From Epinephelus fuscoguttatus (Eukaryota; Chordata; Actinopteri; Perciformes; Serranidae), in the NCBI RefSeq assembly GCF_011397635.1, contig NC_064755.1:36686059-36750058 (forward strand): 64,000 bases of DNA. Reading direction: 5' to 3'. How positions within the stretch are numbered: the first letter of the stretch is position 1; every line of letters begins with the position of its first letter. Under the pieces are notes generated by a model. That model worked only from the letters and a program-made list of their open reading frames with translations. It made no database searches and was not told where the DNA came from. The position numbers and the translations under genes are program-made. Shown here in pieces: positions 26,345-43,479 of this stretch.

Positions 26345-26500
26345 ATGCCTGAGTCTCCTCTCAGTCCCACAGCAGCCCGTCAAACCCCAGCCAGCAGCCT
26401 CCTCAGCCACACAGACGTTGGTGCAGGAGGGAGAGTAGCTAATGGGGACTCCTGCAGTGGAGTGAGTGGTGAAAACTGGCAGAATCTCCACCATAAACAG
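26345..26500 (+). CDS. foxp2: foxp2 first coding exon
   Basis: The exon begins at 26332 after CTTTCTTTTAG; the ATG is at 26345 and CAG|GTATCT ends it in phase 0 after 52 codons. Similarity to FOXP2 is weak but in order: [13 protein letters not shown] and NGDSCSGVS against STLSSQLDAGSRDG and SSGDTSSEVS. This is the least certain coding exon of the gene. Confidence 0.65.
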
Positions 26501-41500: not shown

Positions 41501-43479
41501 ACAACAGGCCTCTGTAAATGAATGATAAATATGGTTGGACTCATCCTGGTGACAGTTTCAAGGCTCTTTCCTGATTGTTGTTTGTGCGACTGAATTATTT
41601 GTCATCATAAATGACCTTGCCTCAAACTATTGCTGTTTACCATGTTGTGGCTTGTGAAATATACACAAGGTATTGATTTGCTTGTTATAAATTACACATG
41701 GATTGTGTCCATTTTGAAATTCTCTTACTTCTGTTATTCCACAGGAGTCCATCACTGCTGAAAAATGTGTCTTCCAACCTCGACTTTGGGACGGTTCTGA
41801 ACACCAGCTTACAGGTGAGAGGATGTGTTAGTGTACACCTTTCAAGCCACTGCAGCACCAGCTTCTTGATTACAGGATCTGGTTGATGTCGCTGTTTGAT
41901 TTCTGATCAATCTTCTTTGTAGACCGCACTGGCTGAGGCGTCACTGCCGGGATTCAAGAGGGAGTGTGTTAGCAGAAACTCCAGGAGTCAAATACAGGAG
42001 AGCAAAGCAACAAACAGCCACAACAAACAAAACTTCTCTCCAAGAGTCCAACAGTGAGTTTTGGTTATTGTGAACTCTAAAAATGTATTAAAGCTGGGGT
42101 AGGCAGGTTTACTTTGGTGTAATCGGGCAAGAATCCCGTAATAAACTTCGAGCATATTGTAATTCAAGTGGACTGAGAGAACAGGAGCCTTCTGCACCGC
42201 CTCTTGGCTCTGTTTTCAGGCTGTAGAAAATCTAAGCCACTAGAGAAGTCTTTGGCCGATCATGGGTCATTTCAGAGAGAGGGCGTTCCTATTGGCTGTT
42301 CTACAAATGCAGATGTCCATGCACGTCTCTGCGGTGAAAGCTTGATCCAATGTCGGAGAATCCTTCAGAGAGAGTTGCTATTCCAGCACCGGCAACAACT
42401 ACCTACACTGCACAGCAACCCAGAAAAGGAAAACAAAGAGAAAATGTTGCTAATAAATTTTGCCTTCGGCTAACCGGAGCTAAACGCTCATGGCTGCGGC
42501 TTCAAGTTCACGTCTATGTAGCCATAGAATCTTGAATCACAGTTTGTCTTCTCAAAGGGCTTTGCAGCTGTGCACCTTTAGTCAGCAGCTGTAGCAAATG
42601 AAACCGAGCCAGTGCAAATCCCAGACCGTTCAAACTCTCTGCCAGATCAGCAGACTTTCTGTTGCTGCCATTACACAGGTTACCCCACCGTTGCCGTTGA
42701 CCACCAGCTTGCTGTGATCCCTGGCGCTGGGGGTTTGCACTGGCTGAATTCAAGTTTCCACAGCCACTGACCAAAGGTCCGTCTCTCAAGCTGCTGCCTG
42801 CTCTCCTCCCAGGGAAGCAGTCCACAGCGATGGGGAGCCAGGCAGATGAACCATGGGGCGGCTAGCTGGCTAATTTTTGTCTCTCAACGACAAAAAATCC
42901 AAATAATTTCAAACTGCCGAGGGCTCAACTTCAATTTTTAGAAAACATTTGATTCTGTTTTCGCCGTGGCAGTTTTATTTATATGCGCAGCTGCGACAGA
43001 GATAGTCATTTGTTCTCTTATTTTAGCGGTGACATTACTGTTTCCTTTTTAACAGCCAATCAAAGTGCTTGAGGCAAAGTGCTGCACAAAGAAGACAAAG
43101 ACTGATTGATTTTATAGTTTTTTTTAAGAAAAAGATGGTAAAAGGAGCATAAAGGGGCTGAGTGAATGAATGAATGTGCTGTACACAGTTCTACAATGAA
43201 TAAGATTAAAGAAACGGAGGCATGTGAAACACTGGGTTACTGTCTGAAATGCCAGCATTGTTTTGGAGAAAAAATGCCTACCCCAGCTTTAAATGACTGA
43301 CGTGCAGCAATAATTGATCCATGATTGAGCTGTCTTTGTTTTTCACCTCTTGTAGGTCTCTAGATCTGAATGACCAAGAATCTCTGCTGCCAACAGTTAA
43401 ACCAGCCGGTCTGCAGCACGACATGACTGAAGACGACGATGATGACGACGGCGATGAGCATTTGTTTGACCTTGAATGA
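26345..43479 (+). CDS. foxp2: FOXP2-family forkhead repressor, compact, 15 coding exons
   Basis: Coding exons: 26345-26500, 29415-29519, 32355-32441, 32896-33004, 33627-33804, 34241-34345, 36064-36151, 36460-36597, 37362-37545, 37655-37725, 39153-39254, 39363-39484, 41745-41814, 41923-42053, 43356-43479. Phases close throughout and total 1770 nt, 589 aa. The N-terminus aligns with FOXP2 (SLL-x-HTDVG...GD...GVS). A Gln-rich region (about 55-150) has Q runs no longer than six. C2H2 zinc finger: [14 protein letters not shown], with H and H in KHISSEH. Leucine zipper: [23 protein letters not shown]-like AIRRRH. Forkhead at about 393-475 differs from human FOXP2 at about five positions and keeps the FOXP hinge RRNAATWK and the RHNLS helix. 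It ends in an acidic [15 protein letters not shown] tail. The ppp1r3a and mdfic neighbours identify foxp2; a foxp2 ohnolog is the alternative. The ALQ-type second exon of human FOXP2 was not found. Confidence 0.92.
26501..29414 (+). other. foxp2 intron with duplicated repeat blocks
   Basis: Non-coding. It holds two related blocks at about 27411-27680 and 27950-28215. Just after the donor is a pyrimidine-rich run (26505-26570) and a short open stretch [20 protein letters not shown] ending near 26650. This faintly resembles the missing FOXP2 exon, but its only nearby donor is out of phase. Confidence 0.5.
27411..28215 (+). repeat. Two direct copies of a hAT-like repeat block
   Basis: Block 1 (27411-27680) and block 2 (about 27950-28215) share, in order, a CACTGTCAGAAAATCA-type segment, a TTGGAGAATTT segment, CATTTTTACMCACA, AGACACACTAGG and TTGGCTGGTGCATCC. 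Block 1 opens TTAGGGCTGCAGTTG, as many fish hAT-like repeats do. Another copy in the opposite strand is near 57090-57260. Confidence 0.6.
29553..31320 (-). mobile_element. L2/Rex1-like LINE relic (RT fragment) antisense in foxp2 intron
   Basis: Minus-strand frames give, in order from the right: [49 protein letters not shown], the catalytic CYADDLQIY (YADD at 30551-30562), then [31 protein letters not shown] and [26 protein letters not shown]. These are the reverse transcriptase and downstream motifs of L2/Rex1-like non-LTR elements. Frame changes near 30510-30580, 30140 and 30900-31000 show it is dead. It is 5'-truncated near 31320 and ends in a short (CTA)n tail near 29551-29574. Confidence 0.85.
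31310..31880. repeat. AGCTAA/TTAGCT-rich simple-like DNA in foxp2 intron
   Basis: The pentamer/hexamer AGCTA(A) or its complement appears dozens of times in about 570 bp without a fixed period. A short, regular (GCTAA)n array occurs at 55452-55500. Origin unknown. Confidence 0.6.
34902..35310 (+). mobile_element. Non-autonomous element with 9-bp target duplication, copy 1
   Basis: Bounded by exact 9-bp duplications GGCACAAAA (34893-34901 and 35311-35319). It begins TAGTCTCTATA and ends GGTTCCGAGAATG. It shares most of its length with 49542-49911. Copy 1 has an extra 35-bp palindrome at 34913-34947. The ends are at best weak inverted repeats. Duplications of 9 bp would suit a Mutator-like transposase, but this is inference. 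No functional ORF. Confidence 0.85.
34913..34947. repeat. Perfect 35-bp palindrome inside the 9-bp-duplication element
   Basis: Arms TACAGACTCTACATTCA and TGAATGTAGAGTCTGTA are exact reverse complements (17 bp) around a single G. It is absent from the sister copy at 49542-49911 and so was gained in this copy or lost from the other. Confidence 0.9.
35855..35889. repeat. (TTAA)n microsatellite
   Basis: About eight TTAA units in the foxp2 intron before the HISSEH exon. Confidence 0.9.
37772..38831 (-). mobile_element. TTAA-flanked non-autonomous element, copy 1 (reverse)
   Basis: Starts TTAA|AGCTGGGGTAAGCA (TTAA at 37768-37771) and ends CCCCAGCT|TTAA (38832-38835). Interior blocks, such as the one whose reverse complement reads GGTCATTTCAGAAAGAGGG, match copy 2 in inverted orientation. 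TTAA duplications are made by Kolobok and piggyBac families; which one applies here is undetermined. No transposase is present. It lies in the foxp2 intron just before the main forkhead exons. Confidence 0.82.
39153..39484 (+). CDS. foxp2: foxp2 forkhead exons (two exons)
   Basis: 39153-39254 encodes [18 protein letters not shown] and [14 protein letters not shown]; 39363-39484 encodes [31 protein letters not shown] and RRRSQKITG. Differences from human FOXP2 in this part are few and conservative, apart from one R to M. The arginine of RHNLS, mutated in human speech disorder (R553H), is intact. Confidence 0.95.
42092..43288 (+). mobile_element. TTAA-flanked non-autonomous element, copy 2 (forward)
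   Basis: TTAA at 42088-42091 and 43289-43292 flank a 14-bp perfect terminal inverted repeat AGCTGGGGTAGGCA / TGCCTACCCCAGCT. The 1197-bp interior shares blocks with copy 1 at 37772-38831 in the opposite orientation. It lies in the last foxp2 intron. A shorter related segment (ACCTATGTAACAGCAGCAAC) occurs near 61915-61990. Confidence 0.88.

Follow-up and report, generated by a model that had tools for sequence, protein, structure and literature searches.

Teleost fishes have two foxp2 genes, FoxP2a and FoxP2b, which were recognised from synteny and trees and probably arose in the teleost genome duplication (Song, Wang and Tang 2013, PMC3857310). FoxP2a retains 16 exons and has inserts in the flanking ones; FoxP2b could not be found in zebrafish, and medaka FoxP2b is likely truncated around its three domains (PMC3857310). 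Omega of the forkhead region was 0.139 in FoxP2b, as compared with 0.030 in FoxP2a and 0.022 in the FoxP2 of sarcopterygians, and selection on FoxP2b was described as relaxed, still purifying (PMC3857310). We analysed a stretch of 64,000 nucleotides from Epinephelus fuscoguttatus (contig NC_064755.1), called the window below, which contains a foxp gene at 26345..43479. With high probability the gene is the FoxP2b that euteleosts retained, as a second foxp2, from the teleost genome duplication, and its carrier is probably a neoteleost. Its shorter, less conserved outer parts are very probably in large part what is expected of FoxP2b. FoxP2b as a teleost foxp2 duplicate is already known, having been published by Song et al. 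(PMC3857310).

Identity of the foxp gene

The gene is located between PPP1R3A and MDFIC, in the order and orientation PPP1R3A(-), foxp(+), MDFIC(+) within the 64-kb window, and these two neighbours mark a FOXP2 locus. Human FOXP2 is flanked by the same two genes in the same order. The features of the locus are as follows.

16126..21614, minus strand: PPP1R3A-like gene, open frames 16126-19233 and 20757-21614 (CBM_21 in 20757-21614, 2.7e-30; best PDB match PPP1R3A 2m83, 1.7e-47)
26345..43479, plus strand: foxp2b coding region, stop included (spliced translation)
53553..53903, plus strand: open frame with MDFIC-like coding exon (MDFI, 2.8e-07; MDFIC chain 9vef, 2.3e-05)

The frame 16126-19233 had no Pfam hit and was assigned to PPP1R3A by position and by eye.

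The forkhead points to the same identity. In a PDB search, FOXP chains were the best 7 of the 46 matches listed, with bit scores of 194.7 for FOXP2 (2a07), 170.2 for FOXP4, 162.9 for FOXP1 and at most 144.9 for FOXP3; FOXP2 leads by at least 24.5 bits, its chain also being the longer match. Over the shared 82-residue core, 78 residues were identical to FOXP2, 73 to FOXP4, 70 to FOXP1 and 62 to FOXP3. Could the gene be FOXP1, FOXP4 or FOXP3, misnamed foxp2? FOXP1 and FOXP4 have in common the N that the window protein carries at position 532, and FOXP3 is also a compact gene. Both the PPP1R3A and MDFIC neighbours and the forkhead identity contradict this assignment, whose probability we regard as negligible, and it was rejected. 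Synteny and core identity thus support a FoxP2 ohnolog, as the sequence-only reading had proposed and as is in print (PMC3857310).

Compared with human FOXP2 (2a07), 6 of 92 aligned forkhead residues differ, namely V503I, S520T, R523M, S532N, K582R and T593S. The sequence-only reading was right that the forkhead is nearly unchanged, although its count of about five differences was low. Song et al. took E519D and R523M to be changes that preceded the duplication, and predicted S520A and S532N in FoxP2b of the neoteleost ancestor (PMC3857310). The window forkhead has 523M and 532N. Several points weigh against FoxP2b: position 519 is E and not the inferred D; position 520 is T (ACA, one step from GCA) and not the inferred A; N at 532 is a weak mark, being found in FOXP1 and FOXP4 among the PDB matches as well; and medaka FoxP2a and FoxP2b are stated to have similar exon compositions (PMC3857310), so that loss of the ALQ exon, described below, is not known to be a FoxP2b trait. 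These points lower our confidence slightly.

The mismatches of E519 and T520 with the inferred FoxP2b ancestor would also speak for another explanation, in which the window gene is FoxP2a, the sole foxp2 of a lineage with a reduced gene. However, FoxP2a keeps 16 exons and the inserts in its flanking exons, FoxP2b is the likely truncated copy, and 532N sits on the FoxP2b branch (PMC3857310). We consider a sole, reduced foxp2 very unlikely. The lineage-specific reduction that had been offered as an alternative to an ohnolog is, as a reduction of the only foxp2, the less likely of the two.

Gene structure and conserved domains

Splicing of the coding region reproduced the 15 coding exons and 589 amino acids of the sequence-only reading. 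All 14 introns have a GT donor and an AG acceptor, and the phases are consistent. The exons, all on the plus strand, are listed from the spliced translation, with other evidence in brackets.

26345..26500, plus strand: coding exon 1, begins MPESPL (also alignment)
29415..29519, plus strand: coding exon 2, at the position preceded by the ALQ exon in human
32355..32441, plus strand: coding exon 3, glutamine (Q)-rich
32896..33004, plus strand: coding exon 4, Q-rich, holds the longest Q run
33627..33804, plus strand: coding exon 5
34241..34345, plus strand: coding exon 6, first part of the C2H2 zinc finger
36064..36151, plus strand: coding exon 7, end of the zinc finger and start of the leucine zipper
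36460..36597, plus strand: coding exon 8, end of the zipper and linker, terminates HGLQ
37362..37545, plus strand: coding exon 9, linker with GAIRRRHH
37655..37725, plus strand: coding exon 10, forkhead start (also PDB alignment)
39153..39254, plus strand: coding exon 11, forkhead with 520T, 523M and 532N (also alignment)
39363..39484, plus strand: coding exon 12, forkhead RHNLSLHK stretch (also PDB alignment)
41745..41814, plus strand: coding exon 13
41923..42053, plus strand: coding exon 14, diverged C-terminal part
43356..43479, plus strand: coding exon 15, acidic tail, stop codon 43477-43479

Coding exon 1 is presumably the counterpart of the human FOXP2 MMQES exon. The complete map is useful because the 2013 paper calls the exon composition of FoxP2b obscure (PMC3857310).

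Pfam placed FOXP-CC (PF16159), the C2H2 zinc finger and leucine zipper, at residues 224-292 (1.4e-34), with the C2H2 pattern unbroken from residue 230. The Forkhead domain (PF00250) follows the zipper at residues 396-473 (4.3e-27). In a global alignment with the human FOXP2 protein, identity over aligned residues was 79/84 in the forkhead, 58/76 in the zinc finger and zipper and 70/99 in the Q-rich part; the N-terminus, the two linkers and the tail had 33-40%. This pattern, with the forkhead and zinc finger/zipper conserved and the flanks diverged, fits FoxP2b. The large divergence outside the domains might also suggest a decaying pseudogene, but a gene decaying neutrally since the teleost duplication would be expected to have lost its open frame. 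The open 15-exon frame, the GT-AG introns and the conserved forkhead led us to reject a pseudogene, which is extremely improbable. That the ohnolog was freed from constraint, as had been suggested, is likewise too strong a statement: the published omega of 0.139 is still purifying (PMC3857310), and the window gene has an intact frame, intact splice sites and three intact domains.

Two other sequences were observed in the introns. Intron 2 holds a reverse transcriptase fragment at 30515-30937 (-) (RVT_1, 3.1e-19, Pfam), which looks like a long interspersed nuclear element by eye. A repeat of about 375 bases occurs in two copies, 93% identical, at 34936-35310 in intron 6 and at 49539-49911 downstream of the gene.

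Absent motifs and proposed function

The longest Q run of the spliced protein is six, as the sequence-only reading had counted, out of 66 Q in total. Ray-finned fish have only 3 glutamines at the place of the long human tract (PMC5126810), and the short run is therefore the fish state. Shortening the Q tracts left expression, localisation, dimerisation, CTBP interaction and repression without substantial change, with some single comparisons given as significant in the figure legends (PMC5126810).

The CtBP-binding motif PLNLV, claimed to be missing between zipper and forkhead, was indeed not found in its literal form, and no P-x-D/N-L motif occurs anywhere in the 589 residues. Its expected place reads HGLQ|LSSV by the exon 8-9 junction, while global alignment sets PASL (304-307) opposite PLNL. 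A looser pattern is matched by PAEM (157), PASL (304) and PVSV (348), and an L-x-L core is common to GLQLS (320-324) and SLDLN (550-554). PLNLV is conserved in FOXP1 and not in FOXP4, and truncated human FOXP2 without it retains residual CtBP binding through its N-terminal part (PMC5126810), so the missing motif does not imply lost CtBP recruitment. The VKEE SUMO site of the tail (K674 in FOXP2) is also absent; the psi-K-x-D/E matches left are VKAD at 214 and FKRE at 516.

Missed exons were searched for on the plus strand with short pieces of human FOXP2, in introns 1, 2, 8, 13 and 14 (5 of the 14), in the flanks on the 5' and 3' sides and across the whole gene. Controls were shuffled dinucleotide blocks (n=60, or n=20 for the whole gene), and a positive control, exon 2, scored 86 against a shuffle maximum of 38. 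For the ALQ exon, the best score in intron 1 was 33 at 28757, equalled by 3/60 shuffles, and inspection by eye showed no suitable splice sites there. Intron 14 gave a score of 30 (equalled by 6/60 shuffles), the other regions searched were equalled by at least 14/60, and the whole gene gave 35 at 37818 (2/20). The alignment has no counterpart of this exon either, and the earlier failure to find an ALQ-type second exon therefore stands for the introns searched and the whole gene. The segment 28757-28819 in intron 1 has a weak likeness to the human ALQ exon (LQAAKILLQ...), which may be chance or a relic. For the piece covering the CtBP region, the best score in the introns searched was 31 (intron 2), equalled by 4/60 shuffles. 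Over the whole gene it reached 37 at 32971, against a maximum of 35 in the 20 shuffles; this match was rejected, as it runs across the donor of exon 4 into the following intron and is without PLNLV. The SUMO-tail piece was equalled by at least 29/60 shuffles in each of seven regions and by 5/20 over the gene.

The sequence-only reading described the regulatory regions as stripped, a phrase that can refer only to protein regions and not to cis-regulation. The features that it described are confirmed, and the flanks are shorter and diverged. "Stripped" is an overstatement, the short Q run being the ray-finned state and PLNLV non-essential for CtBP binding.

Judging from the sequence, FoxP2b is most likely an ordinary FOXP repressor whose function would be reduced or narrowed beside FoxP2a. 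Through the zinc finger and zipper it would form homodimers and probably also heterodimers with other FoxP proteins; its nearly unchanged forkhead would bind FOXP sites, and the remaining Q-rich N-terminal part would bring about repression. Repression would probably be weaker, or act at fewer sites, than that by FoxP2a. The flanks may have shortened because FoxP2a covers the ancestral roles.

FoxP2b might instead be mainly a passive competitor, which pairs with FoxP proteins or fills their sites, brings little co-repressor and so tunes FoxP2a, FoxP1 and FoxP4. This concerns mechanism and is compatible with FoxP2b identity. The window protein has intact domains for dimerisation and for DNA binding but no ALQ exon, PLNLV or VKEE site, and SUMOylation of FOXP1 at K670 was reported to be necessary for CtBP1 recruitment (PMC5429823). 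Against it stand the N-terminal CtBP binding of truncated FOXP2, the survival of the Q-rich part in the window protein, and the lack of effect of FOXP2 K674R, a change at the SUMO site, in cell assays (PMC4751435). We hold a mainly competitive role to be unlikely and prefer a reduced or narrowed repressor.

Neighbouring sequences and comparison with known FOXP2 genes

A further forkhead gene (Pfam Forkhead, 1.1e-29) is located at 22484-23509 (+), between PPP1R3A and foxp2b. Its frame, apparently without introns, starts with an ATG at 22484 and runs unbroken up to a stop at 23509, and it ends about 2.8 kb upstream of the foxp2b start codon. The stretch YWGVHQAHLRDFQQGNFR looks FoxQ2-like by its signature; in the PDB search, none of the 46 matches listed was named FoxQ2. 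In amphioxus, lamprey and skate FoxQ2III lies near FoxP, and bony fishes are reported to have lost it (PMC12828049). The presence of a FoxQ2-like gene next to a bony-fish FoxP is not simply reconciled with this loss. It is conceivable, though rather doubtful, that the gene is the positional descendant of FoxQ2III. Bony fishes would then have kept FoxQ2III next to FoxP2b, or the fish gene classed as FoxQ2I would be located here, and its proximity to FoxP would have escaped notice in zebrafish because that species lost FoxP2b. No report of FoxQ2/FoxP adjacency in bony fish was found at the level of titles and the beginnings of abstracts among the papers listed, and it may well be known. This neighbour would matter more than the FoxP2b finding if it overturned the loss of FoxQ2III that has been reported for bony fishes.

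Other sequences were noted in the window. A tandem array with 57-base and 172-base periods lies near PPP1R3A at 15412-15882; the segment 15358-15477, which overlaps its start, matches 35389-35510 in foxp2b intron 6. The open frame 51997-52260 (+) resembles the start of a DEAD-box helicase (1.7e-05), at 25.1 bits just under the Pfam cut-off of 26. Rfam gave no family at or above the gathering score, and one scan for stray fish DNA in viral contigs found no relative.

The window gene offers a natural experiment on which parts of FOXP2 can be dispensed with: it keeps the forkhead and the zinc finger/zipper but lacks the ALQ exon, PLNLV and the SUMO site of the tail. Human FOXP2 has 715 amino acids. 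The window protein, with 589, shares with it 86 of 92 forkhead residues, the FOXP-CC domain and the domain order, and differs in having no ALQ exon, polyQ tracts, PLNLV or VKEE SUMO site. With teleost FoxP2a it has in common the FOXP2 lineage, the lack of a long polyQ and the lineage change R523M; FoxP2a differs in its 16-exon composition and the inserts in its flanking exons. Compared with published teleost FoxP2b (PMC3857310), the window gene adds a full 15-exon model without the ALQ exon and departs from the inferred ancestors at positions 519 and 520, while it shares the FOXP2 locus in fishes, the shortened surroundings of the zinc finger, zipper and forkhead, R523M and S532N.
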